Positions 37,266 to 56,741 of a stretch of 64,000 nucleotides of DNA are shown here, piece after piece. The notes under the pieces are model-generated. The model was not told the DNA's origin and ran no database searches. It was given only the letters and a program-made list of their open reading frames with translations. How positions within the stretch are numbered: the first letter of the stretch is position 1; each line of letters starts with the position of its first letter. The stretch lies in assembly GCF_020524285.1 (NCBI RefSeq), contig NZ_JAIVKX010000018.1:1-64000 (forward strand), given 5' to 3'. The position numbers and the translations under genes were made by a program. This stretch comes from Alloyangia pacifica. Lineage in GTDB: Bacteria; Pseudomonadota; Alphaproteobacteria; Rhodobacterales; Rhodobacteraceae.

Positions 37266-37285
37266 GGAACCCCCGGTGTCCTTCG

Positions 37286-40078: not shown

Positions 40079-40132
40079 GGGGGATCCTCCCTTGTGGGGC
40101 CGCGGGCTCCTCCGCCCCGACCCGGTGAACTC

Positions 40133-40768
40133 TCAGATGGGTGCGGGTTGCATCGCCTCGGGGTCGGCCTTGCGGAAGGCATCGAGCCCGGCACAGGCCC
40201 GCGCGACACGTGTGATGCGCGTCAGGTCATCGGTGGGCACGCCCCAGCGCGCCGCATTGTAGAGCTGCGGGATCAGGCACAGATCGGCCTGGGTAAGCTC
40301 GGCGCCCATGCAATAAGGGCCGGTCTCGTCGAGCAGCGCCTCGACCGCCTCGAGCCCGGGACGGATAAAGTGCCGCATCCAGTCGCCGCGGGTGTCCTCG
40401 CGCCCCGTCAGCGCGGCGGCATGGGCCGCGACGCGCAGGTTGCAGACCGGGTGCAGGTCGCAGGCGACGGCCTGCGAGACCGCGCGCATACGCGCCGCCT
40501 CGGCCGGGTCCTTCGGGCGCAGCGAGAGCCGCCCGGTGTCCTCGAGGTAGTCGAGGATGGCGAGGCTCTGGGTCAGGCGCAGCCCGTCGATCTCGAGCAC
40601 CGGCACGAGCCCCTGCGGGTTGCGCTGCAGGTGCGCGGTGCCGCGCTGGTCCCCGGCGACGAGATCGACCGGGCGGCTTTCCCAGTCGATCCCCGCGAGG
40701 TTGAGCGCGATGCGCACCCGCCAGCTCGCGGTCGAGCGCCAGTAGTCGTAAAGCACCGCTTCAGTCAT
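40133..40768 (-). CDS. maiA: Maleylacetoacetate isomerase (zeta-class GST)
   Basis: A 211-residue GST-fold enzyme that converts 4-maleylacetoacetate to 4-fumarylacetoacetate with glutathione. The zeta-class N-terminal motif is STASWRVRIALNLAGIDWE (compare SSCSWRVRIAL). The C-terminal LTQADLCLIPQLYNAARWGV is typical of MaiA. The ATG at 40768 overlaps the end of the DUF2783 gene by eight bases. A GTG two codons earlier is also possible. It supplies the middle step between HmgA and FahA. Confidence 0.9.
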   Translation of the reverse strand: MTEAVLYDYWRSTASWRVRIALNLAGIDWESRPVDLVAGDQRGTAHLQRNPQGLVPVLEIDGLRLTQSLAILDYLEDTGRLSLRPKDPAEAARMRAVSQAVACDLHPVCNLRVAAHAAALTGREDTRGDWMRHFIRPGLEAVEALLDETGPYCMGAELTQADLCLIPQLYNAARWGVPTDDLTRITRVARACAGLDAFRKADPEAMQPAPI

Positions 40769-40958
40769 AGGCACGGGCCGTCTCGAAGATCTTCTTCAGC
40801 TCGTCCACGTCACCGAAGCGGTTGGCCAGCAGCAGCAAGATCCGTACATTTAGCGCGTGGCTCTGCGCCTCGCTGAGTCCTTCGTGTGCGGCCATCAGCG
40901 CCTCGTAGGCCTCGTCACCGCGGGCACCGAGCCCCATCTCGTAGGTTTCGCGCATCAT
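40761..40958 (-). CDS. DUF2783-family small protein
   Basis: 65 residues, acidic and helical, beginning MMRETYEMGLGARGDEAYEA and including SHALNVRILLLLANRFGDVD. It matches the DUF2783 family, which is characteristically encoded beside FAD monooxygenases and homogentisate genes in alphaproteobacteria. The start overlaps the monooxygenase stop (ATGATG/TGA) and its stop lies inside the maiA start region. It may stabilise or assist the monooxygenase, but no function is established that I know of. Confidence 0.8.
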   Translation of the reverse strand: MMRETYEMGLGARGDEAYEALMAAHEGLSEAQSHALNVRILLLLANRFGDVDELKKIFETARAYD

Positions 40959-42565
40959 GCCATCTCCCTTTCGCAGCTGCGGCCCATGGCGCGGGCCAGC
41001 GCCTCTTTCAGCGCCGCTTCGGGCACTTTGCCGTGGAACACAGCGGCCGCATGACCATCCGGGCGCACCAGGTAGGCCACCGCGGCGCCGTAGCGCTGAA
41101 GCGCGTAGCCATTGCGGTCGTCATGTGTCTCGTAGCCGCGCCCTGACTGGCCAATGCCGACCCGTCGGATGCCCGCGTCGGGCAGATCGATCTCGCCGAA
41201 GCCGACCAGCGTGAAGTCGCCCTGCAGCAGCGGCAGCAGCCAGCCATTGCCCACCGGCGCGTCGATCATCGGCTGGCCGGGCCGCACCTGCCCCTCGCCC
41301 GGGGTCTGCAGCGCGAAGCCCTCCAGCGAGCAGGGCAGCGACAGGCGGCCGGAGTTGATCAGCCGCCGCGCGAAGGGCTGGTCATGGGCCATGCGCAGCG
41401 TCTCGTGGCGGAACAGCGCCTCGATCTCGGTCTTCGGCGTCATGAAGTTGGTCGAGCGTGAGGAATTGAGAATGTTCTCCGCCGAGCCGTGCGAGCGCTC
41501 CTCGTGGTAGCTCTCGATCAGCGCCTCATCGGCCGCGCCGGTCAGCACCGCCGCCAGCTTCCAGCCGAGGTTGTCCACGTCCTGGATGCCGCCATTGCCG
41601 CCACGCGCGCCGAAGGGGCTGACCACGTGGGCGCTGTCGCCAACGAAGACGACGCGACCATGCACGAAGCGGTCGAGCTTGATGCAGCGGAACTTGTAGA
41701 CCGACAGCCAGTCGAGCCGGAACGGCCGGTCACCGACGATCGCCTTGATCCGCGGGGTGACCTTTTCTTCGCTGGCCTCGAGCTTGGCATCGGCGCCGAG
41801 GTCGAGCTGCAGGTCGATGCGGTAGATATTGTCGGGCTGCTCGTGAAGCAGCGCCGACTTGCCGGGATGGAAGGTCGGGTCGAACCAGAACCAGCGCTCT
41901 GCGGTGCCCTGCTCGAAGGGGCTCTGCTCCATCTCGATATCGGCGATTAGGAACTGTTCCTCGAAGGTCTGGCCGGTGAAATCGAGCCCCATTCGCTCGC
42001 GGGTCGGCGACCGCGCACCGTCGCAGGCCAGCAGCCGCTCTGCCGCCAGGTCGTAACTGCCCTCGGGGGTCTCGACGGTCAGCGTCACGCCATCGGGGCC
42101 GGCGCTGTGGTCCATCACCTTCGACAGGAAGCGCACGTCGATGAGCTCGGGGAATTCGCGGGCGCGGTCGAGCAGGTACTCCTCGACGTAATATTGCTGG
42201 AGGTTGATGAAGGCCGGGTATTTGTGGCCATCCTCTGGCAGCAGGTCGAAGCTGTAGACCTCCTCGTCGCCGTGGAACAGCCGGCCGACCTTCCAGGTCA
42301 CGCCCTTCTCGAGCATGCGCTCTCCAACTCCGAGCCGGTCGAAGATCTCGAGCGTGCGCTTGGCCCAGCAGATGGCCCGGCTGCCGACCGAGACGACGTT
42401 GTTGTCGTCGAGCACCACCGAGCGGATGCCGTGCAGTGCCAGGTCGATGGCCATGGCCAGACCGATGGGGCCGGCGCCGACGATGGCGACCGGGGCTCCG
42501 GTGGCGGCACCGTCAAGCTCGGGCGGGCGCACGAAGGGCTGCGGGGCGTAGCTGTATGCGGGCAT
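40955..42565 (-). CDS. FAD-dependent aromatic monooxygenase (MhpA-like)
   Basis: A 536-residue class-A flavoprotein hydroxylase. The GxGxxG motif is VAIVGAGPIGLAMAIDLALHG (core GAGPIG, about 29-34), the DG motif is LLACDGARSPTRERMG near 180, and the GD motif is VVFVGDSAHVVSPFGARGGN near 305. A C-terminal thioredoxin-like domain follows. The ATG at 42565 comes after a GGGAGGAG site. Such enzymes hydroxylate phenolic acids using NAD(P)H and O2. In this operon it probably makes homogentisate from a hydroxyphenylacetate or similar acid; the exact substrate is inferred. Confidence 0.85.
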   Translation of the reverse strand: MPAYSYAPQPFVRPPELDGAATGAPVAIVGAGPIGLAMAIDLALHGIRSVVLDDNNVVSVGSRAICWAKRTLEIFDRLGVGERMLEKGVTWKVGRLFHGDEEVYSFDLLPEDGHKYPAFINLQQYYVEEYLLDRAREFPELIDVRFLSKVMDHSAGPDGVTLTVETPEGSYDLAAERLLACDGARSPTRERMGLDFTGQTFEEQFLIADIEMEQSPFEQGTAERWFWFDPTFHPGKSALLHEQPDNIYRIDLQLDLGADAKLEASEEKVTPRIKAIVGDRPFRLDWLSVYKFRCIKLDRFVHGRVVFVGDSAHVVSPFGARGGNGGIQDVDNLGWKLAAVLTGAADEALIESYHEERSHGSAENILNSSRSTNFMTPKTEIEALFRHETLRMAHDQPFARRLINSGRLSLPCSLEGFALQTPGEGQVRPGQPMIDAPVGNGWLLPLLQGDFTLVGFGEIDLPDAGIRRVGIGQSGRGYETHDDRNGYALQRYGAAVAYLVRPDGHAAAVFHGKVPEAALKEALARAMGRSCEREMA

Positions 42566-42693
42566 TCTCTCTCCTCCCTGATGCGTGCGGTCCGGCTCCT
42601 CCACCGGGCCGCGCGCGGGTCTTGTCTGGTGTGCCGTCCGGCGCGGAAGCCACGCCGGGGGCTGGTCCGGGGCTCTGCCCGGGCCTCAGCCGC

Positions 42694-43644
42694 TCACCCC
42701 TGCAGGTCGGCCCACATCTGCTGGTCGCGCTCGGCGGTCCAGACGCGCGGGGTGTCGATGCCGCGGGCCTCGTCGTAGGCGCGGCCGACGTTGAACGGCA
42801 GGCAGTGCTCGTAGATGGCGTAATCGGCGAACTTCGGATCGCACTCGGCGCGCACCGCGTCCCAGGCTTCCTTGAGCGAGCCGCCGCGGGCCACGACGCG
42901 GGCCACCGGCTTGTAGGTCGAGCGCACGAAATCAGCGGTGCTCTCCAGCGCCTCGGCAACCTGCGCCTCGCCCACCAGCGCGTCACCCCGGCCCGGCGCG
43001 ATGGCCTTGGGCTCGTAGAACGCGATATTGGCCAGCGTCTCGGGCCAGTCGGCGAAATGGCCGTCACCGCAGTAGCAGGCCGAGTGGAACTCGACGATGT
43101 CGCCGGTGAACATCACCTCCTGGTCGGGCACCCAGATCACCGCGTCGCCGGCGGTATGCGCGCGGCCCAGGTGCATGATGTCGACCCGGCGCTTGCCGAG
43201 GTAGACGGTCATGCGGTCGCTGAATGTGGTCGTGGGGCGGGTCAGGCCGGGGATTTCCTCATGCCCCTGGAAGAGCCGCGGGAAGCGGCCGAACTCGCTG
43301 TCCCAATCCTCCTGTCCGCGCTCTTCCACCATGGCCGCGGCGGTGTCGGACATGATGATCTCCCGCGCGCCATAGGCCGATGCGCCGAGCACGCGCACGG
43401 CGTGGTAATGCGTCAGCACGAGGTGGCTGATCGGCTTGTCGGTGACCGAGCGCACGCATTCTATCACCTTGCGCGCGAGCCGCGGGGTGGCCTGCGCCTC
43501 AACGATCATCACGCTCTCGTCGCCGATGATGACGCCGGTGTTGGGATCGCCCTCGGCGGTGAAGGCATAGAGCCCCTCGCCCACCTGCGTGAAGCTGATT
43601 TTCTTTTCTTCCATGTCGCCTTGCGACGCGAATGCCTTGGCCAT
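42694..43644 (-). CDS. MBL-fold protein with altered zinc motif
   Basis: A 316-residue metallo-beta-lactamase-fold protein. Where catalytic members have HxHxDH it reads HYHAVR (residues 79-84), so the Asp and third His are missing. His163 (GRAHTAGD) and Asp182 (FTGDIVE) remain. It starts with MAKAFASQGDMEEKKISFTQ, 11 bases after the fumarylacetoacetase stop. It is embedded in the homogentisate operon, so a thioester- or lactone-hydrolase-like function is possible, but with at most one metal ion or none. Function is not established. Confidence 0.8.
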   Translation of the reverse strand: MAKAFASQGDMEEKKISFTQVGEGLYAFTAEGDPNTGVIIGDESVMIVEAQATPRLARKVIECVRSVTDKPISHLVLTHYHAVRVLGASAYGAREIIMSDTAAAMVEERGQEDWDSEFGRFPRLFQGHEEIPGLTRPTTTFSDRMTVYLGKRRVDIMHLGRAHTAGDAVIWVPDQEVMFTGDIVEFHSACYCGDGHFADWPETLANIAFYEPKAIAPGRGDALVGEAQVAEALESTADFVRSTYKPVARVVARGGSLKEAWDAVRAECDPKFADYAIYEHCLPFNVGRAYDEARGIDTPRVWTAERDQQMWADLQG

Positions 43645-43655
43645 GAGTGCCTCCT

Positions 43656-44897
43656 TCAATCCTTGGTCCAGTCGGGCTGCGGCACGGCGGGCAGAACCTT
43701 GCCCGCGCAGGCGCCGAAGCCGATGCGGTAGCCATCGCCCTGGGCGGCGCCGCGCAGTGTGAGCGTGTCGCCATCCTCCAGGAAGCTGCGGGTGGCGCCG
43801 CCGGGCAGTTCCAACGGCTCCTTGCCGCCCCAGCTCAGCTCCAGCAGCGAGCCGCGGCTTTCGGGGGTGGTCCCCGAGATGGTGCCCGAGCCGAGCAGGT
43901 CGCCGGTGCGCATGGCGCAGCCGCTGCTGGTGTGGTGGCAAAGCTGCTGCGCCGCCGAGTAGTACATCTCGCGGTAGTTGGTGCGGGCGATCACCTCTTC
44001 CTCACCTCCCTCCGGGACCAGCGCCACCTCGAGGTCGATATCGTAGAGCATCGGTCCCGGCTCGCGCAGGTAGGGCAGCAGCTCGCGCTCGCGCTCCGGC
44101 GTCGAGGTGCGGAACGGCGCCAGCGCCGCGGCGGTGACGATCCACGGGCTGATCGTGGTGGCGGTGGCCTTGGACTGGAACGGGCCGAGCGGCTGGTACT
44201 CCCAGGCCTGGATGTCGCGCGCCGACCAGTCGTTGAGCAGCACGTAGCCGAAGATCATCTCGTCCGCCTGCGCCACCGAGACCATGCCCTGCGACGGCGT
44301 GCCGACGATGGCCCCCATCTCCAGCTCGAGATCGAAACGCGCGCAGGGCGCGAAGCGCGGCAGATCGTCCTGCGGGCCCTTCAGCTGGCCCCAGGGGCGG
44401 GTGACATCGGTGCCCGACACCACCACCGAGGAGGCCCGGCCGTTGTAGCCGATGGGGATTGACAGCCAGTTCGGCGGCAGCGCGTTCTCCGGCCCGCGGA
44501 ACATGGTGCCGACATTGAACGCGTGGTTCTTGGCGGCGTAGAAATCGGTGTACTCGCTGACCGTGAAGGGCATCAGCAGCGACACGCTCTCCAGCGGCAC
44601 CAGGTGCGGCTCGACGGCGGCGCGATGCGCCTCGTCGCCAAGCAGCTCGGTCAGCCGCGCGCGCAGCGCCGTCCAGACCTCGGGGCCGGCCGCCATCACC
44701 GCGTTCCACGACGGCGCAGCGAAGAGCGCCGCATCCTGGCCGTGGTCCACCGCGCCGACGTCGAGCACCGAGGTTCCGATCGCCACGCCCATGCGGGCGC
44801 CGCGGCCATCGTCGAAGACCCCGTAGGGCAGGTTGTTCAGAGGGAAATCGCAGCCGGGCTCGTTCGCCCCGCCGACCCAGCTCTGCATCAAGCTCAT
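43656..44897 (-). CDS. fahA: Fumarylacetoacetase
   Basis: A 413-residue enzyme that hydrolyses 4-fumarylacetoacetate to fumarate and acetoacetate. The N-terminal SH3-like domain (NEPGCDFPLNNLPYGVF) is followed by the FAH fold with the catalytic YTDFYAAKNHAFNVGTMFRG region (Asp and His), metal residues in FDLELEMGAIVG, and LLNDWSARDIQAWEYQPLGP. It ends the homogentisate route. It lies 111 bases after hmgA, separated by a stacked-hairpin repeat. Confidence 0.95.
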   Translation of the reverse strand: MSLMQSWVGGANEPGCDFPLNNLPYGVFDDGRGARMGVAIGTSVLDVGAVDHGQDAALFAAPSWNAVMAAGPEVWTALRARLTELLGDEAHRAAVEPHLVPLESVSLLMPFTVSEYTDFYAAKNHAFNVGTMFRGPENALPPNWLSIPIGYNGRASSVVVSGTDVTRPWGQLKGPQDDLPRFAPCARFDLELEMGAIVGTPSQGMVSVAQADEMIFGYVLLNDWSARDIQAWEYQPLGPFQSKATATTISPWIVTAAALAPFRTSTPERERELLPYLREPGPMLYDIDLEVALVPEGGEEEVIARTNYREMYYSAAQQLCHHTSSGCAMRTGDLLGSGTISGTTPESRGSLLELSWGGKEPLELPGGATRSFLEDGDTLTLRGAAQGDGYRIGFGACAGKVLPAVPQPDWTKD

Positions 44898-44934
44898 TGC
44901 AGTCCTTCCGGGGGCATCCCGCCCCTTCTTCTCT

Positions 44935-44998
44935 TTCCAAATACGCCGGGGGTGAATTGGCCGTAGGCCAAGAGGGGGCAGCGCCCCCTCCCCCTTTC
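44935..44998. repeat. Stacked-hairpin intergenic repeat
   Basis: It begins TTCCAAATACGCCGGGGG and contains two adjacent hairpins: TTGGCC-GTA-GGCCAA (44957-44971) and GAGGGGGC-AGC-GCCCCCTC (44972-44990), followed by a T-containing tail. Very similar intergenic sequences are, to my recollection, common in Rhodobacterales genomes. It may act as a terminator/attenuator or transcript stabiliser between hmgA and fahA. Confidence 0.65.
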
Positions 44999-45008
44999 AA
45001 GCGGCGAC

Positions 45009-46376
45009 TCAGTCCCAGTTGCCCTCGGGCGTGCCGTCGAAGCGCTTCTTCAGGCTGTCCCAGCAGTCGATGTAATCGTCCTGCAGCGGCGCTTCCTGCG
45101 CGGCAAACCGGGTCAGGTGCTGCGGGAAACGGGTCTCGAACATGAAGCTCATCGTGTTGTCGAGCTTGCCCGGCTTCAGCTCGCCGAAGCTGGCCTTCTC
45201 GAAGGCCTCGTTGTCCGGCCCGTGCGGCAGCATCATGTTGTGGAGGCTCATCCCGCCCGGCACGAAACCCTGCGGCTTGGCGTCATACTCGCCGTAGATA
45301 TTACCCATCATCTCGGACATGACGTTCTTGTGGTACCACGGCGGGCGGAAGGTGTTCTCGGCCACCATCCAGCGCTCGCGGAACAGCACGAAGTCGATAT
45401 TGGCGGTGCCCTCGACGCCCGAGGGCGCGGTCAGCACGGTGAAGATCGACGGGTCGGGATGATCGAAGAGGATCGCGCCCACCGGGCAGTAGGTGCGCAG
45501 GTCGTATTTCACCGGCGCGTAATTGCCGTGCCAGGCCACAACGTCGAGCGGCGAGTGGCCGATCCAGGTCTCGTGGAACTGCCCCTGCCACTTGATCACC
45601 ACGCGGCTCTTGGCATCGCGATCCTCGAAGGCGGCAACCGGCGTCTTGAAGTCGCGGCGGTTGGCCATGCAGTTGGCGCCGATCGGGCCGCGGCCCGGCA
45701 GGTCGAACTTCTGGCCGTAGTTCTCGCAGACGAAGCCGCGCGCCGGCCCGTCGATCAGCTCGACCCGGTACACGAGACCGCGCGGCAGGATGGCGATTTC
45801 CTTGGGCTCGAGGTCGATCACCCCGAGCTCGGTGCAAAATCGCAGCCGCCCCTCCTGCGGGACCACCAGCAGCTCACTGTCGGCGGAATAGAAATACTCG
45901 TCCTGCATCGAGGCGGTGACCAGGTAGATGTGGCTCGCCATGCCGACCTGCGTGAAGACGTCGCCCGCCGTGGTCATCGTGCGCATGCCGGTGAGCCAGG
46001 TCAGGCTCTCCTGCGAATGCGGCACCGGATCCCAGCGGTACTGGCCAAGGCTGATCACGTCCGGATCGACGTAGGGCGCGCTCTGCCAATAGGGCACGTC
46101 GATCTTCGCAAAGCGGCCGGTGTGCTTCACCGCCGGACGGATGCGGTAGCACCAGGTGCGCTCGTTCTGATGGCTCGGCGCGGTGAAGGCGGTGCCCGAG
46201 AGCTGCTCGCCGTAGAGCCCGTAGGCGCAACGCTGGGGCGAGTTCATCCCGTCGGGCAGCGCGCCCGGCAGCGCCTCGGTCTCGAAGTCATTGCCGAAGC
46301 CCGGCATGTAGCCCTCGTGCAGGGCGCTGATGCCAGCGGCGCGCGTCAGACCGGAAATTTTGCTCAGGTCATTCAT
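45009..46376 (-). CDS. hmgA: Homogentisate 1,2-dioxygenase
   Basis: A 455-residue iron(II) ring-cleavage dioxygenase that converts homogentisate to 4-maleylacetoacetate. The start [10 protein letters not shown] precedes the hallmark [19 protein letters not shown] and [20 protein letters not shown]. Iron ligands are visible as His in [12 protein letters not shown], Glu in the same segment, and His in [11 protein letters not shown]. It is the first gene of the leftward operon, directly next to the perfect MarR operator. Confidence 0.97.
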
Positions 46377-46410
46377 CTCCGAAGTCCTCCCTCGACGTAT
46401 TGATGACATG

Positions 46411-46436
46411 TTGTTAGTTACTTTTGTAACTAACAA
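46411..46436. promoter_or_regulatory. MarR-type operator of the homogentisate operon
   Basis: A perfect inverted repeat: TTGTTAGTTAC (46411-46421), a TTTT spacer, then GTAACTAACAA (46426-46436). It lies 35 bases upstream of hmgA and 15 bases upstream of the divergent marR gene, which it should repress from both sides. Confidence 0.85.
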
Positions 46437-46450
46437 GAGGGATTCTTGAG

Positions 46451-46909
46451 GTGATCAAGAAATTGGCACAAACCCGCGAAAGCGATGACATTTTCGAGCT
46501 TTCCAGTTTCACGCCCTACCTTCTCAACCAGGCGGCTGAAGCGCAGAGTGACGTGTTTTCAAGAAATTACCGCGACCGCTACGGGATGCTTCGGACCGAG
46601 TGGCGGGTGCTGTTCCACCTGGGCCGCCACGGCGACATGAGCGCCAAGGAGATCTCGGAAAGCGCCTCGATCCACAAGACCAAGGTCTCCCGCGCGGTCC
46701 GCGCGCTGGAGGAAAAGCGATTCCTCTCGCGGGTCACCAGCCCGGACGACCGGCGCAGCGAACGGCTCTCGCTGCGCCCGCCGGGACAGGAGGCGTTTCG
46801 GCACCTGTCGCGGGCGGCGCAGGACTACGAGGCCGCGCTCGAGCAGCGCCTCGGGAAACGCGACGCGTGCAAATTGCGGGAGTTGCTCAAGCGGTTGGAC
46901 GGCACCTGA
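46451..46909 (+). CDS. MarR-family regulator of homogentisate genes
   Basis: A 152-residue MarR protein starting at GTG. The wHTH includes [40 protein letters not shown] and the wing [15 protein letters not shown]. The divergent position, 75 bases from hmgA with a perfect palindrome in between, indicates that it represses hmgA and itself, probably relieved by homogentisate, as known for HmgR-type regulators in other bacteria. Confidence 0.9.
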
Positions 46910-46958
46910 CCTGCCGGACGGCGCGGCCCGCTGGGGCACCCCGCGGCCCGGCCCGCGT

Positions 46959-49900
46959 TCACAGGTCCAGCTCGATCACCCCGCCCGGTGTCGCGGCGCG
47001 ACTCTGGCAGGTGATCATCGCGCCCTCCCGCTGCGCCTTCGACAGAACGAAGTCGCGGTGCTCGACCTCCCCCGCCCGCACCCCGCACTTGCACACCCCG
47101 CAGATGCCGTCGTCGCATTTGAGGTCGATCGGAATCCCCGCCGCCTGCAGGACCTCCGCCGCGCTGCGGTCCTCGGCCACCTGCAGCACGCGCCCGTCCT
47201 TCAGCCGCAGGGCAAAGGGGTGGTTCTCGTAGTCGGGCTGCTCGGGCACCGAGAAATACTCCAGGTGCCGCGCCTCCTCGGGGAAGCCGGCGCGCTCTGC
47301 CGCCGCCATGACACCCTGCATGTAGCGGTCGGGCCCGCAGGTGTAGACGTGCCATCCCGGGGCGTAGCCGCCCATGATCGCATCCAGGTCGGCGCGCGTC
47401 CCCTCGTCGGAGACATGCAGATGCACCTTCCCGGCCCAGGGCATCGCCGCCAGATCGTCGAGAAATCCGGCCCCGGCGCGCCGCGAGCAGGAGTAGTGCA
47501 GTGCAAAATCCCGACCCAAGGCGTGCAGGCGGTGGGCGAAGGCGATCATCGGCGTGATGCCGATGCCGCCGCCCATGAGCAGTGACATGGGCGCAGACTC
47601 CTCGAGAGGGAAATGGTTGATCGGCCGCGAGATGAAGATCTTCCGCCCCGGCGTGAAGATGCGGTGCATCAGCTTCGAGCCGCCCCGGCCCGCCTCCTCG
47701 CGTAGCACGGCGATCTGGTAGCGCGTGCGGTCGGCGGGATCGCCGCTCATCGAGTATTGGCGCAGGAATTCCGGCGCGACCAGGATGTCGAGATGCGCCC
47801 CGGCGGTCCATTCCGGCAGGTCCGAACCGTCGAGGCTGCGGAACTCGTATTTCGTCACATCGGCGGTCATGGCATGGGCCTCGGCCACCTCGACCCGGAT
47901 CACCGGCGCATCTTCCGGCACGCTGTAGCCATGCAGGTGATCATCCCTGCCCTGCTCCAATCGCAGCTTGTACTCGCGGGCGGTGAGCATCGCCTGGTAG
48001 GCCTCGATCCCCTTTTCGCGGTCCATCGGGAAGGGATAGGGCCAGGGATGCGGCGCCAGGCGCGCGGGATAGACCGCCAGCGTCTGGTCCTCGTAGCGCA
48101 GGTCCAGCCCGGGCTGCAGATCGCGGCGATTCACCGGATGGCGGCTGGGCCGATAGGCGCCGTCCTCTTCCAATTCGATGTCCCACCACCATTTCTTGAC
48201 GTCGTTCAGCCTGCCGTTGCCGACCGCGTCATCGAGCCGCGCCAGCAGCGGCGCGGCCTTCGGCACATTCATCGCCGCCCAGCGGAAAGGCCGCTCGGCA
48301 AAGAGCCCCTCGAGGTTCCACGGGCAGGTCTTCATGCACCGCCCGCACATTGCGCCGCCCTTGGTGGTGATACGGTAGGTCGCGCATTTCTGGCTGTCGG
48401 ACTTCCAGATCTCGTAGCCATTGAACATCAGCTTCGGCCCGGCGGTGATCGCCCCCGACGGGCATTCCCGCGCGCATTTGTTGCAGCTCTCGCAAAAGCT
48501 CTGCAGGCCGAAGTCGATGGGCCTGTCATGTGCCAGCGGCATGTCGGTGGTCACCACTCCGGACTTGAGCCGCGGCCCGAGATAGGGGTTGAGGATCACC
48601 TCGCCGATGCGGCTCACCTCGCCCAGCCCCGACAGCAGCAGCAGAGGCGGCTGCAGCACCTCGCCATCCAGGACCGTATGCGCCTTGGCCTTGTAGCCGA
48701 GGTTGCGGATCTGCTGCGCGATGACGCCCCCGAGCAGCGAGAAGCGCAGGTAGGCGCGCATCGATTGCGCGACGCTGATCCAGTCGTCGCCGCTGGCGCC
48801 CTCCATGGTCTCGAAGCCCTGGTCGATAATCATGCTGATCGCCTGGTCGTGCGGCGGCTCGATGGGAGTGCCGAGGGCGTCGTGCGAGTACCACGCCCAC
48901 TCGGGGCAGCGCGAGATCCCCACCGCGTCCGCGCCCAGGAAATAGCTCGCCGCCTTGATGTTCGCGGCATTGCGCGCGGCGTCCGCGGGCCGTGCGCCGC
49001 CCGGATCCGGCGTCCCGTCCTGGTTCAGAACGAAGGCCCCGAGCGCCCGCCGCTGCGCGGAGGAGGGCGCCGCCTTGCGCGCGTAATGGCCGCCCTTGGC
49101 CCCCTCCTGCAGCGCCTTGCCCATGTCGCCGAACTGCGCGCGGGCGAACATGTCGGCGCGCTTCGGCACCCGGGCGACCCGCGCCTCGTCGATATAGGTG
49201 GTGGGCGCGTCGACCCGCTTCAGCCGCTCGAAAGGATGCGCCCCGTCGACAAAGCGGCGGCGGTCGTAGGGGTTGCCGTTCAGCGCGGACCGCTGGACGC
49301 CACGGCCGAGCCGCCATGCCAGACCGCCCGAGCCGGGCTGCGCCGCGAGCGGCTGGTCGCAGGCCAGATCCAGACGGCAGGTGACCACGCCGACGCCGAA
49401 GCGCGTCCCGAGGAACGGCGCCTCGAGCCGCCCCTCCCGCACCATGGCCAGCCCCGCCGCCACCGTCAGCCGATTGAGATCGACGTCCGAGGCCGCCCCC
49501 GAATGCGCCTTTGCATCGTGCCCCAGCAGGCGGATGTAATTCGCGATGACATTGGCGGTCTCCGAGGCGCGCAGGCAGGCGCGCTGCGCCAGCGCATCCT
49601 TCAGCCAGTCGCAGCCGGGCTCATCCTCGCCCGGCTCGCGCGGGTTCTCGTAGAGGTAGACGATGGCATGGCTGTGCCCGCTGATTGGTGCGGGCGGTGC
49701 GGCGATGCTGTCCTTCAGGTCCGCCATGATGACATCGATCCCAGAGGCCAGGGTCTTGGTCTGGCGCGTCTGGATGTCCCTGGCCAGACGGTCGATGTCG
49801 GGATTGAGAAAGGGCGTCTCCAGCAGCGCGGCCGCGTCCAACCGGCAGATCCCGACCATGGCCGCGTCGTTGAAATAGCCGAAAGCCTTGAGGTGGTTGG

Positions 49901-50150
49901 CGCGCTCGACCGGATCGCCGGGAATCTCCGAGACCTCCGGGTTTGTCAGACCGCCGCGGATCGTGTCGAGGATCGCCTGATACTCGCGCATCGCGTTGAC
50001 GATGCTTTCCGGCGCGTCGGGACGGTCGAAGCGGACCTGCTGCATCGGCGGCACGTCGGCAAGGTCGGGTGTTTCCCCGCGCGCAAGGGTTTCGAGCGGA
50101 AACGGCCCCATATGGACCGGGCGGTTGCGGTCGGAGAACAGTCGAGTCAC
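46959..50150 (-). CDS. Self-sufficient reductive dehalogenase (RdhA fused to ferredoxin reductase)
   Basis: A 1063-residue fusion. Residues 80-270 form a degenerate repeat of the cobalamin-binding core, and 390-550 the core itself (compare HLKAFGYFNDAAMVGICRL with NIKAASYFLGADAVGISRC). Two [4Fe-4S] clusters follow: C553/C556/C559/C563 and C589/C602/C605/C609. From 740 a flavin/NAD(P)H reductase (RQYSMSGDP, MGGGIGITPM, YTCGPDRYM) ends in a plant-type [2Fe-2S] domain (C1012/C1017/C1020/C1048). There is no Tat signal, so it is cytoplasmic. This matches catabolic, oxygen-tolerant enzymes such as BhbA and relatives of NpRdhA, which remove halogens from halogenated hydroxybenzoates using B12. GTG start after GGAGGTG. 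Confidence 0.88.
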   Translation of the reverse strand: MTRLFSDRNRPVHMGPFPLETLARGETPDLADVPPMQQVRFDRPDAPESIVNAMREYQAILDTIRGGLTNPEVSEIPGDPVERANHLKAFGYFNDAAMVGICRLDAAALLETPFLNPDIDRLARDIQTRQTKTLASGIDVIMADLKDSIAAPPAPISGHSHAIVYLYENPREPGEDEPGCDWLKDALAQRACLRASETANVIANYIRLLGHDAKAHSGAASDVDLNRLTVAAGLAMVREGRLEAPFLGTRFGVGVVTCRLDLACDQPLAAQPGSGGLAWRLGRGVQRSALNGNPYDRRRFVDGAHPFERLKRVDAPTTYIDEARVARVPKRADMFARAQFGDMGKALQEGAKGGHYARKAAPSSAQRRALGAFVLNQDGTPDPGGARPADAARNAANIKAASYFLGADAVGISRCPEWAWYSHDALGTPIEPPHDQAISMIIDQGFETMEGASGDDWISVAQSMRAYLRFSLLGGVIAQQIRNLGYKAKAHTVLDGEVLQPPLLLLSGLGEVSRIGEVILNPYLGPRLKSGVVTTDMPLAHDRPIDFGLQSFCESCNKCARECPSGAITAGPKLMFNGYEIWKSDSQKCATYRITTKGGAMCGRCMKTCPWNLEGLFAERPFRWAAMNVPKAAPLLARLDDAVGNGRLNDVKKWWWDIELEEDGAYRPSRHPVNRRDLQPGLDLRYEDQTLAVYPARLAPHPWPYPFPMDREKGIEAYQAMLTAREYKLRLEQGRDDHLHGYSVPEDAPVIRVEVAEAHAMTADVTKYEFRSLDGSDLPEWTAGAHLDILVAPEFLRQYSMSGDPADRTRYQIAVLREEAGRGGSKLMHRIFTPGRKIFISRPINHFPLEESAPMSLLMGGGIGITPMIAFAHRLHALGRDFALHYSCSRRAGAGFLDDLAAMPWAGKVHLHVSDEGTRADLDAIMGGYAPGWHVYTCGPDRYMQGVMAAAERAGFPEEARHLEYFSVPEQPDYENHPFALRLKDGRVLQVAEDRSAAEVLQAAGIPIDLKCDDGICGVCKCGVRAGEVEHRDFVLSKAQREGAMITCQSRAATPGGVIELDL

Positions 50151-50221
50151 GGCACCTCCCCATGCGTGTGGTTCGAACTTTCTTGATCTAGCCGGAGCGC
50201 GGCGCCTATTCTGTAACCCGA

Positions 50222-51004
50222 ATGGATGACACCGCTTTCTCTCCCCTGCCCCGCGACCGCAGCGCGACGCTCGCCGCGCTGGTGCCGGAGCCGGGGTTCG
50301 GCGCGGCGCTGCTGGCTTATATTCGCGAGGCTGCGGACATCGTGAATTTCGGCGCCTTCTACGTGTCCGACCTGAAGCGTCCGGAGCCGGTCCTGTCGAT
50401 CTGGTCCGGCGAGATGAGCGACTACTGGTTCCGCCGCAACGCCCGCACGATCGCCTCGCACGACAGCCTGCGGCAGGACTTCTCGGACCGCATCCGCCGC
50501 GCGCCGCAGGGCGCGCTGGTCATCGACCGCTGGCATCCCCCGGCGGACGATCCGCGCGCGGCGATCTATGCCCGCGACCAGGTGGTCGAGCGGGTTTCGG
50601 TCGCCTCGCGGATCGGGCGCGGCGGGCTTGTGTCCTTCTACCTGCGCGGGGTGCAGGCGGGATGGCTGTCGGACGCGGATCTCTCGCGGCTTCGCGGCGT
50701 CCTGCCGCTGGCGCACGAGTTGATCGGCCTGCGGCACCGCATCGCCGGGCACCAGCCGGGGTTGCCGGCGGACCGGTCCTTCGCGGCGCTGCGGGCAGAC
50801 AATGTCGGCGCCTTCGCGGGGCTGACAGTGCGCGAGGCCGAGGTCTGCGATCTCGCCGCCCGCGGTGTCTCGGTCGAGGGCACCGCACTGGATCTGGGCA
50901 TCTCCGAGAACACCGTCCGAACGCTGCGCCGGCGGGCCTACCGCCGGCTGCAGGTCGCGACGACGACGCAATTGACGCGATTGCTGTTCAGCGACCGCCG
51001 CTGA
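50222..51004 (+). CDS. LuxR-type (GerE) transcriptional regulator
   Basis: A 260-residue protein with a C-terminal LuxR HTH (FAGLTVREAEVCDLAARGVS, GTALDLGISENTVRTLRRRA) at about 198-250. The N-terminal ~180 residues show no obvious sensor motif but contain FGAFYVSDLKRPEPVLSIW, reminiscent of PAS/GAF-like folds. It is divergent from the dehalogenase gene with only 71 bases between the starts, so it is the prime candidate to regulate it. I see no autoinducer-binding signature. Confidence 0.85.
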   Translation: MDDTAFSPLPRDRSATLAALVPEPGFGAALLAYIREAADIVNFGAFYVSDLKRPEPVLSIWSGEMSDYWFRRNARTIASHDSLRQDFSDRIRRAPQGALVIDRWHPPADDPRAAIYARDQVVERVSVASRIGRGGLVSFYLRGVQAGWLSDADLSRLRGVLPLAHELIGLRHRIAGHQPGLPADRSFAALRADNVGAFAGLTVREAEVCDLAARGVSVEGTALDLGISENTVRTLRRRAYRRLQVATTTQLTRLLFSDRR

Positions 51005-51137: not shown

Positions 51138-52229
51138 CTACCGCTTTTGGGCGTAATAGGCCGCGAGATCGGCGATGTCTGTATCTGTCAGGTTGCGTAC
51201 CGCTGCCTGCATGAGATGCGCGCGCGGCGTCTCGGGGATCGGCCCGTCGCGGTAGAGGTGCAGCCAGTTGACCAGCCAGTAGCCGTCCTGCCCGGCGATG
51301 CGCGGCGTGTCGGCGCGTTTCGGCATGAGCCCGCCGCCGGTCCCCTCATGGCAGGAGGCGCAGCTCGCGATGTCCTCGTGCTCGTCGCCCTGCCATGCCA
51401 GCGCGCGGCCCCGCTCGGCATCGCCGAAGGGCAGCGACCGGCCTTGCCATGTGCCCCCCATACCGGCGTAGCGTTCGGCGATCGCGGAGCGGGTCTCGGT
51501 GCTCAGCGGCGCGGCGAGCGGTTCCATGAAACCGCTTTCGCGATGTCCGGTCGCATAGGCTTCGAGCACAGTTTCGAGCCAGCCCTGCGACTGCCCGGCC
51601 AGCTTCGGCGCGGTCCCGTCCCGGCCCAGCCCATCCTCGCCGTGGCACCGCGCGCAGGCCAGCTCCTGCGGGATGGCGCCCGGCAGACCGCCAAAACGCA
51701 CCCCGGCGCTCTGGTATCCACCCGCACGGCCAAAGGCGGCCTCCGCGTAGGCCGCGCGGTCGAAGTCGTCGTAGTGCGACAGGAAGGCGGCCATGGCCCA
51801 GGGCTCATCGTCGCGACCCTCGCCGGGCCAACTCGGCATGCCGGTGTACTTGAAGCCGTGGCGGGCGATCCACCAGAACTCCTCCGGCTCGAAGTCGTCC
51901 GAGGTCAGCATCGGCGGCTCGGGACGCATGCCCTCGACGGCGGGGTTTCGGGGAAGGCCCGGCGCACCGTGGCAGGTCTGGCAGCCGGTGGCGAAATGCC
52001 CTGCGCCGAGGCGGATGAGCCCCGGATCGTCCAGGTCCACGTGGTCCGGCACCTCCACCCGGTTCGCCCGCACCCGCACCGCGTTGCGCAGGTACTGGTG
52101 CAGCACCTCGCCCACGCCGGGCAGATGCGGCACCGAGGCGGCGATATTGTAGGGCGCAAACCAGAAGAAGGCCGCCCCGGTGACGGCCACGGCGCCCATG
52201 CCGCCGATGATCCAGCGTTTCAGCCTCAT
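51138..52229 (-). CDS. Triheme cytochrome c
   Basis: A 363-residue secreted or membrane-anchored c-type cytochrome with an N-terminal hydrophobic segment (IIGGMGAVAVTGAAFFWF). Three CxxCH sites are visible: C83-C86-H87 (CQTCH), C192-C195-H196 (CARCH) and C290-C293-H294 (CASCH). The C-terminal NLTDTDIADLAAYYAQKR is a typical cytochrome c ending. It is the last gene of the leftward oxidase operon; its ATG overlaps the ctaG-like stop. It likely delivers electrons to the caa3-type oxidase encoded upstream. Confidence 0.85.
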   Translation of the reverse strand: MRLKRWIIGGMGAVAVTGAAFFWFAPYNIAASVPHLPGVGEVLHQYLRNAVRVRANRVEVPDHVDLDDPGLIRLGAGHFATGCQTCHGAPGLPRNPAVEGMRPEPPMLTSDDFEPEEFWWIARHGFKYTGMPSWPGEGRDDEPWAMAAFLSHYDDFDRAAYAEAAFGRAGGYQSAGVRFGGLPGAIPQELACARCHGEDGLGRDGTAPKLAGQSQGWLETVLEAYATGHRESGFMEPLAAPLSTETRSAIAERYAGMGGTWQGRSLPFGDAERGRALAWQGDEHEDIASCASCHEGTGGGLMPKRADTPRIAGQDGYWLVNWLHLYRDGPIPETPRAHLMQAAVRNLTDTDIADLAAYYAQKR

Positions 52230-52804: not shown

Positions 52805-53211
52805 TCGCCCAGCACCATGCCGGGGATCACCGTGAAGAGGATCGCGACCGCCGAGAGCACGCAGAGCAGCAGCGCCAAGTGACCGACGAAGCGGTCGCGT
52901 GCCCGCTCCGAGCTTTCGGTGATTTCCTCGAAGATCACGAAGACGCCGCCGTAGCGGCGGATCGCAAGCACCGCCAGCCCGATGATCGCGGCGATGCAGA
53001 GCCCGCCCAGCCCGGCGATGATCCAGCGCGGCTCGGCCAGCGACGTGCCGCGCCCGAGCTTGGCGCACCAGATCGCCGCGACCCAGTAGCTGAGCAGGAA
53101 ATGCGCCGCCCAGATCGAGGGGGCCGCGACAAGGATCCAGACCGAGCCCTGGTCGATGACGCGCGGCGCGTCACCGGGTGGGACGGTCTTCCTGTCTCGG
53201 GACCGGGCCAT
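52798..53211 (-). CDS. Membrane protein of the cox operon, function unknown
   Basis: 137 residues with three hydrophobic stretches (VWILVAAPSIWAAHFLLSYW, IIAGLGGLCIAAIIGLAVLA and LALLLCVLSAVAILFTVIPG). No domain that I recognise. It is coupled on both sides: the start overlaps the CoxI-III stop as TGATG, and the end overlaps ctaG. It could be a small oxidase subunit, equivalent in position to CoxP of alternative oxidase operons. Confidence 0.7.
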   Translation of the reverse strand: MARSRDRKTVPPGDAPRVIDQGSVWILVAAPSIWAAHFLLSYWVAAIWCAKLGRGTSLAEPRWIIAGLGGLCIAAIIGLAVLAIRRYGGVFVIFEEITESSERARDRFVGHLALLLCVLSAVAILFTVIPGMVLGEC

Positions 53212-55766
53212 CACGCCACCCCCATGAGCATCGGGAAGAGTGCCAGCAGCGCGAAGATCACCACCGCCGTCAGCGCGAGGAAATGGGTGAAGAGCGTCAG
53301 GTTCACGCAGTCGGCGCGGTAGCGCGGCGTGCAGCGTCCGCGCCAGATGCGCGCCGCCACGTAGAGCCGCATCACCGCGTCGAGCAGCAGGTGCAGTCCC
53401 AGCCACAGGATCAGCACCCAGACGGTCGCGTCGAAGGAGGTCTCGGTGGCGTCGAGCCCGGCGCGCCAGGCGGCCCAGCACCACGCCCCGACCCCCGCTG
53501 CACCGAGCGGAACGCCCACGAGCAGCAGCGCCATCGCCTGCGCCGGGCCACCCCGCGCGAGCCGTTCTCGAGCGAGAAGCCCGGTCGCCCAGCCCGCCAG
53601 CAAGAGCGCCAGCCCGAGGAGCAGCCAGCCGAAGCCCGGCAACTTGGCGGCGCCCGGCAGGAAATCCGGCAGCGCCGTCCAGTAGAAGAAATAGCTGAAC
53701 ACCAGCCCCATGAAGGCGGTCATGTCACCGGTCATGGTGATGAACACCGCCCACCAGCCGGGCGAGCTATTGCCCTGCGCATAGGTCGGTAGCACCAGCC
53801 CTCGCCCCGCCTCTTTCTCGGACTTTTCGGGGATCTCCGCGGTCCCGGTCCACAGCCACCAGAGCGTGAAGCCGGCGAAGCCCGCGCCGAAGAGCAGCGT
53901 CAGCGTCCAGAGGTGGAAGGTCGCGAGGATGAACACCGCGCCGAGGCAGAAGGCCGCGCCGATGGTCAGGTAGCTCGGCCCACCGACGCGCTGCACGTAG
54001 AGCGGACGCGCGTCGAGGATGTCGGTGATGATCAACTCGCGCTTGCCCTCCTCCGCGTCGGGCAGGAACCATTCGCCGCGGTCCATCTCGCCGAGCAGCC
54101 CCTTCTGCTCCCAGAGCGGATAGCGGGTGTGGATATAGGGGATCGAACGCACGCCCCAGGGCTTGTCGGGAACCTCGGCGCTCCATTCCATCGTGCCGGC
54201 GTTCCAGAGGTTGCGCTCCACCAGCGGCGCCTTGCCGCGCGGCCAGAGCACGTTGACCGCCAGCACCACGAAGCCCGCCGCGAAGATGAAGGCGCCAACG
54301 GTCGAGACCATGTTGAGCACCGCCCAGCCATCGGTGACGTCATAGGTCCAGACCCGCCGCGGCATGCCCATCACACCCGTCCAATGCATCGGCAGGAACG
54401 TGAGGTTGAAGCCGCCGAACATCAGCCAGAAGCTCCAGCGCCCCAGCTTGTCGGACATCTTCTTCTGAGTGACGAAGGGGTACCAGTAGTGCACGCCCGC
54501 GAAGAGTGGGAAGAGCATGCCGCCGATCAGCGTGTAATGCAGGTGCGCCACCACGAAGTAGCTGTCATGCGCCTGCCAGTCGAAGGGCACCAGCGCCACC
54601 ATCACCCCGGTCAGCCCGCCGAAGACGAAAATCGCCAGCGCGCCCCCGGCAAACAGCATCGGCACCGAGCGGCGCACCTTGCTGACCAGCATGGTCGCGA
54701 TAAAGCAGAAGATCTGGATGCCCGTGGGCACCGACACCGCCTCGGAAGCGGCCGAGAAGAAGCTCAGCGAGATCTCCGGCAGGCCGGTGGTGAACATGTG
54801 GTGCACCCACAAACCGAACGACAGGAAGGCCACGCCCACCGCCGACAGCACGATCCACGAATGCCCGACCATGGGCCGCCCGGCGAAGGTCGGCAGGATG
54901 GTCGCGATGAGCGCGATCGAGGGCAGGAAGATAATGTAGACCTCGGGGTGGCCGAAAATCCAGAAGAGGTGCTGCCAGAGCAGCGGATCGCCGCCCCGGT
55001 CGGGATCGAAGAAGGCCCAGTCGAAGGCGCGCTCCATTTCCAGCAGCAGGTCCCCGGCGATCAGCGGCGGGAAGGCGAAGAGGATCATCCCCGCCACCAC
55101 CAGCACGTACCAGCAGTAGAGCGGGATCAAGTTGAGCCGCATGCCCGGCGGACGCGACTTCAGCACGCCGACGATCAACTCGACCGCGGCGGCGATCGAC
55201 GAGACCTCGATGAACGACAGGCCCAGCAGCCAGATGTCGGCCCCGAGGCCGCTGTAATCGGGATCGGACGAGAGCGGCGCATACATGAACCAGCCACCAT
55301 CCGGCGCCACGCCGAAGAACACCGAGCCGCAGACGAAGATGCCGCCGATCAGGAAGCACCAGTAGCCGAAGGCCGACAGCCGCGGGAACGGCAGGTCGCG
55401 TGCGCCGAGGATCTCGGGCAGGATCAGGATCGCCACCGCCTCGAAGATCGGCACGGCGAAGAGGAACATCATCGCCGTGCCGTGCAGGGTGAAGAGCTGG
55501 TTGTAGAGGCCCTGCGACAGCAGGTCGTTGTTCGGCACCGCCAGCTGCGCGCGGATCAGCAGCGCGAGGAAGCCGGCAAAGGTGAAGAAGGCGAAGGAGG
55601 TCAGCAGGTACCACTTGCCCACCGACGAGTTGTTCACCGCCGAGATGCGCCGCCAGCCGGTCGGCGTCTGCCAGACCTTCATCAGACGCGCGCGCTGCGC
55701 CTCGTCGCGCGCCTTGTCGTAGGGCTCGGCGGGCGGCAGCTTGGAGAGGTCGATCTCTTGGGTCAT
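53211..55766 (-). CDS. Cytochrome c oxidase subunits I and III fused
   Basis: 851 residues: subunit I (about 1-600) joined to a subunit III-like domain (about 600-851). Haem and copper ligands are present: H95 (HGTAM), H273 (GHPEVY), H322/H323 (VHHMF), H408 and H410 (AHLHYT), plus Tyr277. Asp124 (ARDLPFPR) and Glu275 of the D pathway are kept. The K-pathway lysine is absent: the segment reads VPTGIQIF with Gln351. The Asn pair of the D-channel segment (PRMNN in canonical enzymes) is PRLSA. It forms the catalytic core of an aa3/caa3-type oxidase. Confidence 0.92.
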   Translation of the reverse strand: MTQEIDLSKLPPAEPYDKARDEAQRARLMKVWQTPTGWRRISAVNNSSVGKWYLLTSFAFFTFAGFLALLIRAQLAVPNNDLLSQGLYNQLFTLHGTAMMFLFAVPIFEAVAILILPEILGARDLPFPRLSAFGYWCFLIGGIFVCGSVFFGVAPDGGWFMYAPLSSDPDYSGLGADIWLLGLSFIEVSSIAAAVELIVGVLKSRPPGMRLNLIPLYCWYVLVVAGMILFAFPPLIAGDLLLEMERAFDWAFFDPDRGGDPLLWQHLFWIFGHPEVYIIFLPSIALIATILPTFAGRPMVGHSWIVLSAVGVAFLSFGLWVHHMFTTGLPEISLSFFSAASEAVSVPTGIQIFCFIATMLVSKVRRSVPMLFAGGALAIFVFGGLTGVMVALVPFDWQAHDSYFVVAHLHYTLIGGMLFPLFAGVHYWYPFVTQKKMSDKLGRWSFWLMFGGFNLTFLPMHWTGVMGMPRRVWTYDVTDGWAVLNMVSTVGAFIFAAGFVVLAVNVLWPRGKAPLVERNLWNAGTMEWSAEVPDKPWGVRSIPYIHTRYPLWEQKGLLGEMDRGEWFLPDAEEGKRELIITDILDARPLYVQRVGGPSYLTIGAAFCLGAVFILATFHLWTLTLLFGAGFAGFTLWWLWTGTAEIPEKSEKEAGRGLVLPTYAQGNSSPGWWAVFITMTGDMTAFMGLVFSYFFYWTALPDFLPGAAKLPGFGWLLLGLALLLAGWATGLLARERLARGGPAQAMALLLVGVPLGAAGVGAWCWAAWRAGLDATETSFDATVWVLILWLGLHLLLDAVMRLYVAARIWRGRCTPRYRADCVNLTLFTHFLALTAVVIFALLALFPMLMGVA

Positions 55767-55781
55767 GCGCGGCGCGATCCC

Positions 55782-56741
55782 TTACTCGAGGCTCATCAGG
55801 AAGGTCACGAGCGCGTCGAGCCGCGCGCCCTGCAAGTCCGGATAGGCGGGCATGTCGATGTCGGGTTTCATCTCGTGGGTCTCGGTGATCCAGCGCGCCA
55901 TGGTCTCGGGGGTCATCTCGTAGATACCCGCCCCCAGCTTGTCGCGCGCCGCCAGGTGGGTGAGATCCGGGCCGACCGGCCCCTGCGCGTTCGTGCCGCG
56001 AATGGTGTGGCAGGCGCCGCAGCCCTCCTCGTCGAAGACCGCGAAACCCGGATCGCCCTCGTCCACCTGCGCCGGCTGTGCCTCATGCGCCAGCCATGCC
56101 TCAAAATCCTCGGGCTCCATGACGATGGCATCGAAGCGCATCAGCGCGTGCGCCCCGCCGCAGAACTCGGCGCAGAGCCCACCCCAGTTGCCGAGCCGTT
56201 TCGGGGTGAGCGCCAGGGTGGTCTCGCGACCCGGGATCATGTCCATCTTGCCTCCCAGCGCGGGAACCCAGAAGGAATGGATCACGTCGTCGGCGGTGAG
56301 GCGGAACAGCGCACGTTCTCCGAGCGGCAGGCGGATCTCGTTGGCGGTGGTGACCAGCCCCTCCGGCGTGTCGTAGATCACCCGCCACCACCAGCGCTCG
56401 CCGTCGACGCGCACGGTGAGCGCGCCGTCATCGGCGGTGATATCCCGCAGGATCAGCAGGCCCCAGACCAGCAGGCCGCCGACCACCAGCACCGGCAGCG
56501 CAACACCGCCCCAGAGGATGAAGCGCCGCGCTTCCTGCTCGCGTTCGGGCTTGGCCTCGGCACGGTGGGCATAGGTCGCGGCACCGATCACCAGCGACCA
56601 GATCACCGCGGCCCCGGCCAGCAAGACCCAGAAAAGCGTCTCGACCGATCGGGCTTCCTCGCCGGCGGCGGCGAGCCAGTTATGGCGCCCTTCGCAGCCT
56701 GCGAGGAACAGGACGAGAGCAAGCGAGGCAAGACTTTTCAC
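55782..56741 (-). CDS. Cytochrome c oxidase subunit II with haem c domain (CoxM-like)
   Basis: A 319-residue lipoprotein (lipobox LAGC) with two membrane helices. The CuA site reads VIHSFWVP ... CAEFCGGAHALM, with both Cys, two His and Met. A C-terminal cytochrome c domain carries CGACH and the axial-Met segment MPAYPDLQG. This makes the oxidase caa3-type. It is the first gene of the operon, 15 bases before the fused subunit I-III gene, as in coxMNOP-type clusters. Confidence 0.92.
   Translation of the reverse strand: MKSLASLALVLFLAGCEGRHNWLAAAGEEARSVETLFWVLLAGAAVIWSLVIGAATYAHRAEAKPEREQEARRFILWGGVALPVLVVGGLLVWGLLILRDITADDGALTVRVDGERWWWRVIYDTPEGLVTTANEIRLPLGERALFRLTADDVIHSFWVPALGGKMDMIPGRETTLALTPKRLGNWGGLCAEFCGGAHALMRFDAIVMEPEDFEAWLAHEAQPAQVDEGDPGFAVFDEEGCGACHTIRGTNAQGPVGPDLTHLAARDKLGAGIYEMTPETMARWITETHEMKPDIDMPAYPDLQGARLDALVTFLMSLE

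Follow-up and report, generated by a model that had tools for sequence, protein, structure and literature searches.

Recurrent docking of a self-sufficient reductive dehalogenase gene against homogentisate clusters in Rhodobacterales

The 64,000-nucleotide stretch of Alloyangia pacifica DNA analysed here (contig NZ_JAIVKX010000018.1, positions 1 to 64,000; hereafter the window) carries on its minus strand, at 46959–50150, an open reading frame (ORF) of 1,063 codons, which profile and phmmer matches together with motifs identify as a self-sufficient catabolic reductive dehalogenase. We refer to the gene as rdh; it starts with GTG, with GGGGAGGTG immediately 5' of the start codon. Beside it lies a block of homogentisate (hmg) genes that also encodes a tripartite ATP-independent periplasmic (TRAP) transporter. 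Across the genomes that we sampled, the link of rdh to homogentisate catabolism is real, occasional and recurrent.

The Rdh protein scored 196.5 bits against the NCBIfam reductive dehalogenase profile TIGR02486 (cut-off 160). phmmer matched it to NpRdhA (4ras; E = 8e-166) in two stretches, residues 3–106 and 158–740; by homology, residues 3–106 are a vestigial cobalamin part, and an intact cobalamin domain is also present. Residues 744–1059 match phthalate dioxygenase reductase (PDOR; 2pia, E = 8e-52), and a Fer2 domain was found. Two sets of [4Fe-4S] motifs lie at 553–563 and 589–609, and the reductase module has its [2Fe-2S] motif at 1012–1048, RQYS at 797 and GGGIG at 860, with flavin and nicotinamide motifs intact. 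A motif check, made with no signal predictor, found no RR pair within the first 60 residues, and the protein lacks by the same check the twin-arginine (Tat) export feature of respiratory reductive dehalogenases. Profiles, phmmer and motifs thus bear out the initial annotation of one chain with a degenerate and an intact cobalamin domain, two [4Fe-4S] clusters, a flavin reductase, a [2Fe-2S] ferredoxin and no Tat signal. The fusion to a reductase is not new, having been described for BhbA and JtRdhA (PMC10463259).

Alignment placed the NpRdhA residues S422, M423, Y426, K488 and R552 at S463, M464, Y467, K529 and R593 of Rdh, and F291 at F335. The first five are invariant in 112/112 aligned rows, the window protein and BhbA among them, so the substrate and catalytic residues of NpRdhA are conserved; all twelve Fe–S cysteines are likewise kept in 112/112 rows (window counted). 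With this conservation, the ORF is not a chance one. An AlphaFold2 model (17 input rows, 68–83% identical) reached a mean pLDDT of 56.2 and a pTM of 0.43 with a poor core, too weak to serve for pocket analysis, and it was dropped for that purpose; a Foldseek search with it returned NpRdhA first and PDOR-type reductases next, adding little to the sequence match. Sequence evidence supports a cytoplasmic, catabolic, self-sufficient RdhA with intact catalytic residues. The enzyme is of an already known kind, since homologues widespread in Roseobacters are in print (PMC13101508).

Three characterised proteins offer a comparison. JtRdhA of Jhaorihella thermophila is, by description rather than direct alignment, alike in its RdhA–PDOR fusion, absence of a Tat signal, vestigial cobalamin domain and named active-site residues, whereas the available text mentions no hmg context (PMC10463259); the architecture and residues of Rdh also agree with the accounts of NpRdhA and JtRdhA (PMC10463259, PMC7565698). 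NpRdhA (Nitratireductor pacificus; 4ras, 6zxu) shares the two cobalamin-type domains, the two [4Fe-4S] clusters and the mapped active-site residues but is without a reductase module (PMC10463259). BhbA (Comamonas sp. 7D-2, plasmid pBHB) matches over its full length with 49.5% identity and has the five catalytic residues in common, but its gene adjoins ligA, an extradiol dioxygenase gene and a gene for a tripartite tricarboxylate transporter binding protein rather than hmg genes.

The hmg/TRAP block of the window spans 36811–46909, all on the minus strand except its last gene. It begins at the far end with a second MarR-type regulator gene (36811–37237), followed by those for the TRAP large permease DctM (37286–38593; ORF 37286–38659 scanned), the small permease DctQ (38586–39041) and the solute-binding protein DctP (39038–40078), whose nearest solved chain is 4p56 (E = 1e-73), presumably solved with mandelate bound. 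Then come maiA for maleylacetoacetate isomerase (40133–40774; TIGR01262, 226 bits), a 65-residue DUF2783 ORF (40761–40958) and, sharing an ATGA overlap with it, the gene for a 549-residue FAD aromatic hydroxylase of PRK08132 type with an FAD_binding_3 domain (40955–42604). An MBL-fold hydrolase gene (42694–43644; 42694–43590 scanned), fahA for fumarylacetoacetase (43656–44897; TIGR01266, 481 bits) and hmgA for homogentisate 1,2-dioxygenase (45009–46436 as listed, with a likely ATG start near 46376; TIGR01015, 640 bits) complete the minus-strand run, and a MarR-family regulator gene (46451–46909, plus strand) diverges from hmgA. The MBL-fold gene, which is usually present and strongly conserved in hmg clusters of the family (76–98% identity where found), has to our knowledge no role in homogentisate catabolism.

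HmgA, FahA and MaiA each score above the NCBIfam equivalog cut-offs, so the central homogentisate pathway is present, and domain scans agree with the TRAP genes and FAD monooxygenase reported nearby. The spacing needs a finer description: the 50 bases given between rdh and the hmg set correspond to a 49-bp gap, but this gap leads to the convergent MarR gene between hmgA and rdh, and the hmgA start lies about 520–580 bp from rdh. On its other side, rdh is separated by 71 bp from a divergent LuxR/GerE-type regulator gene (50222–51004, plus strand). The neighbourhood as first listed was sound for the genes it named but left out both of these regulators, the MBL-fold gene and the DUF2783 ORF.

To judge linkage, we assembled a family sample of 394 genomes from 393 genera, with rdh in 149 and hmgA in 268. 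hmgA was present in 131/149 rdh-positive versus 137/245 rdh-negative genomes (odds ratio 5.7, with genome size and lifestyle uncontrolled) and missing from 18/149 rdh-positive ones. Distances were compared by eye from coordinates, and genes on different contigs were counted as unlinked. By this measure, rdh lies less than 6 kb from hmgA in 3/131 double-positive genomes, namely the window genome (G000, itself chosen because linked), G336 and G420. An order sample built around G420, whose linkage had been established beforehand, comprised 390 genomes, 186 of them rdh-positive and some shared with the family sample; 106 new rdh-positive genomes with coordinates were queried for hmgA, those lacking coordinates being left out, and seven of the 103 positives had the two genes within 6 kb (G442, G643, G462, G469, G632, G667 and G657). 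The combined count is 10/234 double-positive genomes in five genera, plus G005 of the window genus; the order sample contributed only two new linked genera, g80 and g290. G578 (19 kb apart) and G414 (32 kb) were not counted. Uniform gene placement, under which the expectation was computed, would give about 0.9 pairs within 6 kb and about 0.1 next-gene pairs in 234 genomes, and genomes of one genus are not independent.

In all nine other linked genomes and in G005, rdh sits directly at the edge of the hmg cluster, with gaps of −56 to 78 bp (longest-start ORFs). The arrangement differs between genera. In g402 (three genomes), rdh is co-directional with the hydroxylase and DUF2783 genes and lies downstream of them with gaps of 61–78 bp; in g318 (three genomes), it lies downstream of MarR on the same strand, 16 bp away in G336 and with overlapping longest-start ORFs in the other two. 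It stands tail to tail with DUF2783 in g80 (0 and −4 bp), with maiA in g290 (9 bp) and with MarR in the window genus (49 bp). It looks as though rdh shares an operon with the hmg cluster in g402 and g318.

Within the window genus, hmgA occurs in 13/20 genomes and rdh in 3/20, and rdh is joined to the block in just two, the window genome and G005 (equivalent of window 36811–51004, 90% identical DNA); the outer flanks fetched for these two show no DNA matches except one TRAP-like stretch. With no rdh next to it, the block is complete in G002, G011, G012 and G014, lacks its TRAP genes in G009 and G010, and is partial in G016 and G019. In G011, rdh and its LuxR gene (equivalent of window 46913–50999) lie about 71 kb from the hmg/TRAP block. 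The TRAP importer, first read as part of the dehalogenation route, belongs instead to the hmg block: four of the eight other hmgA-bearing genus members examined (besides G005) have the TRAP-containing block, none with adjacent rdh.

A candidate for the homogentisate-forming step is the hydroxylase of the cluster. In Paraburkholderia xenovorans LB400 and Pseudomonas putida U, the conversion of 3-hydroxyphenylacetate to homogentisate has been shown or proposed for MhaA, a flavoprotein of 560–566 residues, with the 60-residue MhaB (PMC3053370). The 549-residue hydroxylase and 65-residue DUF2783 protein of the window look like MhaAB by size and by their place beside hmg genes, a likeness of the whole cluster that rests on size and position, not sequence identity; a difference is that the available text on the MhaAB–hmg cluster mentions no dehalogenase (PMC3053370). 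DUF2783 is present in all ten linked regions fetched besides the window. No 4-hydroxyphenylpyruvate dioxygenase (HPD) above the TIGR01263 cut-off was found in six window-genus genomes tested. The best match in the window genome reached 203.8 bits (cut-off 277) in a 650-residue frame, and those of the genus scored about 181–204 bits inside frames of 631–703 residues; long HPD-like frames can be QuiC-like fusions. In the other four genera, HPD is present in all ten genomes that are linked or nearly so, on another contig or far off. HpaB was found in 0/16 genomes, the search not extending to 4-hydroxyphenylacetate hydroxylases of other kinds; some bacteria possess a 4-hydroxyphenylacetate 1-hydroxylase. 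Because HPD stays below cut-off and HpaB is missing, the window genome likely uses a homogentisate-forming enzyme other than HPD.

We consider it somewhat probable that Rdh debrominates or deiodinates a hydroxyphenylacetate-like acid, from which a MhaAB-like enzyme then makes homogentisate; gene content, residues and linkage are observed, and substrate, channelling, flux, cofactor loading and regulation are features that we infer. Electrons would pass from NAD(P)H through FMN, the [2Fe-2S] and the two [4Fe-4S] clusters to cobalamin within an oxygen-tolerant cytoplasmic enzyme. By homology, bromine or iodine ortho to the phenolic hydroxyl would be removed, with S463, K529 and R593 anchoring the hydroxyl and Y467 as proton donor. 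The dehalogenated product would enter the MarR–hmgA–fahA–MBL–FAD hydroxylase–DUF2783(–maiA) cluster, where the MhaAB-like pair would turn 3-hydroxyphenylacetate into homogentisate, and HmgA, MaiA and FahA would take this to fumarate and acetoacetate.

Entry of the product into the hmg cluster is suggested because rdh docks there recurrently, and an ortho-bromo- or ortho-iodo-hydroxyphenylacetate is therefore favoured over BhbA-type hydroxybenzoates. Among ortho-halogenated hydroxyphenylacetates, the candidates would be 2- or 4-bromo-3-hydroxyphenylacetate first and 3-bromo-4-hydroxyphenylacetate next. Of the two acids first proposed, hydroxybenzoate and hydroxyphenylacetate, only the latter reaches homogentisate by established chemistry. 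JtRdhA uses NADPH, is active in air and takes bromine and iodine, not chlorine, from ortho-halogenated phenols, with 3-bromo-4-hydroxyphenylacetate turned over at 99% of the best rate; the papers test dehalogenases on commercially available compounds only (PMC10463259). More tentatively, and as something we regard as possible, an unrecognised aerobic route may exist in Rhodobacterales in which a catabolic RdhA has been recruited repeatedly to the mhaAB-like/hmg cluster, so that bromo- or iodo-hydroxyphenylacetates lose their halogen, are converted to homogentisate by hydroxylation and end up mineralised.

Several observations weigh against the proposed hydroxyphenylacetate route. The two genes are more than 6 kb apart or on different contigs in 224 of the 234 double-positive genomes. 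A search of bacterial and archaeal genomes gave at least 578 confirmed rdh relatives, almost all of the best 80 being labelled Rhodobacterales, Hyphomicrobiales or Alphaproteobacteria; in the flanks available for these 80 (up to 10 kb, shortened in 22/80 loci), hmgA, fahA and maiA were found in none, and protocatechuate genes or apparent molybdenum-hydroxylase genes adjoin other relatives. One of the 80, L037, whose rdh is the same as that of G026, has MBL and FAD hydroxylase genes about 8 kb from rdh with hmgA absent there; hmgA of G026 is on a different contig, and the locus was not counted as linked. The link foreseen between rdh and homogentisate genes thus stands as a recurrent one but fails among the nearest relatives, and co-occurrence is mixed, most relatives lacking the link and several other genera having it. 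The sub-cut-off HPD-like proteins of the window genus might act as HPD.

The cluster itself is not dedicated to halogenated substrates. In 31 control hmg regions (L166–L196), chosen non-randomly from rdh-positive genomes, mostly on long contigs and with no nearby rdh, 26 carry both the FAD hydroxylase and the MBL-fold gene, and 26 carry DUF2783; G578, with hydroxylase and MBL, and G414, with neither, were kept outside this count. Hydroxylase and MBL were accordingly rejected as markers of a special halo-aromatic cluster. Both genes are standard in hmg clusters of the family and so did not join them to deal with halogenated substrates; if anything, it was rdh that joined the hydroxylase and MBL genes. 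A control count is too weak to prove specificity for hmgA. Of the 131 double-positive family-sample genomes, 80 were checked for pcaH and 63 have it; none of these has it within 10 kb of rdh (nearest about 12 kb, in G150, by eye), versus 3/80 for hmgA, a difference that is not significant. Finally, a tree was built from 115 rows of at least 900 matched residues, with four duplicates skipped and the window added to give 112 rows (107 different). Under this biased sampling, the linked rdh of four genera form one clade, so independent linkage events may be fewer than genera; because the rows are the window's 80 nearest relatives, the linked ones and others, sampling may also account for how linked rows group outside the window's clade.

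Regulation in the window speaks the same way. A probable MarR operator, the 11-bp inverted repeat TTGTTAGTTAC-N4-GTAACTAACAA, lies at 46411–46436 in the hmgA/MarR region. The window contains a single copy of its 22-bp core and shuffles contain none, and the repeat is recognisable (at most 5 mismatches of 18) at 25/26 other hmg loci checked. The 71-bp gap between rdh and LuxR lacks it. MarR and rdh converge, and the region from which rdh and LuxR diverge gives rdh a promoter region of its own, devoid of the operator found at hmgA; MarR co-regulation of rdh in the window is therefore rejected for now. Because the repeat is missing from this gap, window rdh is probably under control of the LuxR protein, apart from hmg regulation. 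A LuxR gene lies near rdh in 12/80 nearest relatives, adjacent and divergent in 11, and likewise beside rdh in G005 and G011. In g318 and g402, the strand and position of rdh suggest control from the hmg side; a weak match to the repeat upstream of rdh in G657, with 5 mismatches of 18, does not stand out from those seen at other places.

A different account, which we think unlikely, makes Rdh an enzyme that detoxifies or scavenges bromophenols in general under a LuxR switch of its own; adjacency to hmg in the window would be an accident that brought two mobile modules together on accessory DNA. It draws on the separation of the rdh–LuxR and hmg/TRAP blocks in G011, on Nioella loci with rdh–LuxR and no hmg, on the wide variation of rdh-adjacent ORFs over 20 loci (judged by sequence start), on simple bromophenols being substrates of Ros_A3X954 and JtRdhA, and on the hmg block being plasmid-borne in Alloyangia and, with its TRAP genes, in Ponticoccus alexandrii. 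By contrast, five genera have rdh directly against an edge of this cluster, with its orientation varying and with apparent operons in two of them, where uniform placement predicts next to no such next-gene pairs. Slightly less probable still is that Rdh, like BhbA, yields 4-hydroxybenzoate from 3,5-dibromo-4-hydroxybenzoate to feed protocatechuate catabolism elsewhere, which would make the hmg link irrelevant. BhbA is grouped with ligAB, a Nitratireductor relative lies near pobA, protocatechuate 3,4-dioxygenase is encoded on another contig of the window genome, and 3,5-dibromo-4-hydroxybenzoate is the best substrate of JtRdhA (PMC10463259); the pcaH and hmgA counts near rdh lean the other way without reaching significance. 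That Rdh acts after hydroxylation, on halogenated homogentisate from the FAD hydroxylase so as to keep HmgA unblocked, is very improbable: the halogen could likewise be ortho to a ring hydroxyl, and in g402 and g80 the hydroxylase/DUF2783 pair is the immediate neighbour of rdh, but no hydroquinone is among the listed JtRdhA substrates and the catabolic enzymes characterised so far are said to act specifically on ortho-halogenated phenols (PMC10463259).

What appears new is the recurrent docking of rdh against the homogentisate cluster, the kind of enzyme and its spread in Roseobacters having been published (PMC10463259, PMC13101508); the link does not appear in the titles and abstract openings listed from the open-licence literature searched. 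If dehalogenation does feed the hmg cluster, this would be, within that literature, the first catabolic reductive dehalogenase tied to homogentisate instead of protocatechuate. The docking offers a concrete, testable conjecture on which class of compounds these dehalogenases act on in nature and bears on the possible recycling of naturally brominated and iodinated aromatic acids in oxygenated sea water.

Other neighbourhoods recur among the 80 relatives. In 24–25 of them, rdh is followed by three genes resembling the FAD, [2Fe-2S] and molybdenum subunits of a xanthine-dehydrogenase-family hydroxylase (L022, L024 and others; the examples inspected are from Ruegeria, and the families were assigned from sequence starts), and 23 of these loci have a LysR-like gene on the opposite side of rdh. 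A different TRAP permease, 36–42% identical, lies near rdh in 5/80. On an Aminobacter plasmid (L148, 6543–13222), a MarR gene lies directly upstream of an rdh relative with a TRAP transporter beyond, a further hint that rdh-type enzymes are paired with acid importers.

Elsewhere in the window, an 851-residue cytochrome c oxidase ORF (53211–55766, minus strand), judged from sequence to join subunits I and III, stands beside a subunit II-like ORF with CxxCH near its end (55782–56741, minus strand; also judged from sequence), and a 363-residue protein with two cytochrome c domains is encoded nearby at 51138–52229. Further along on the plus strand, genes for a Sigma-54-type GAF/AAA/Fis activator and a 599-residue flavin monooxygenase adjoin at 57280–59043 and 59183–60982, the monooxygenase giving partial, sub-cut-off ArsO-like matches.

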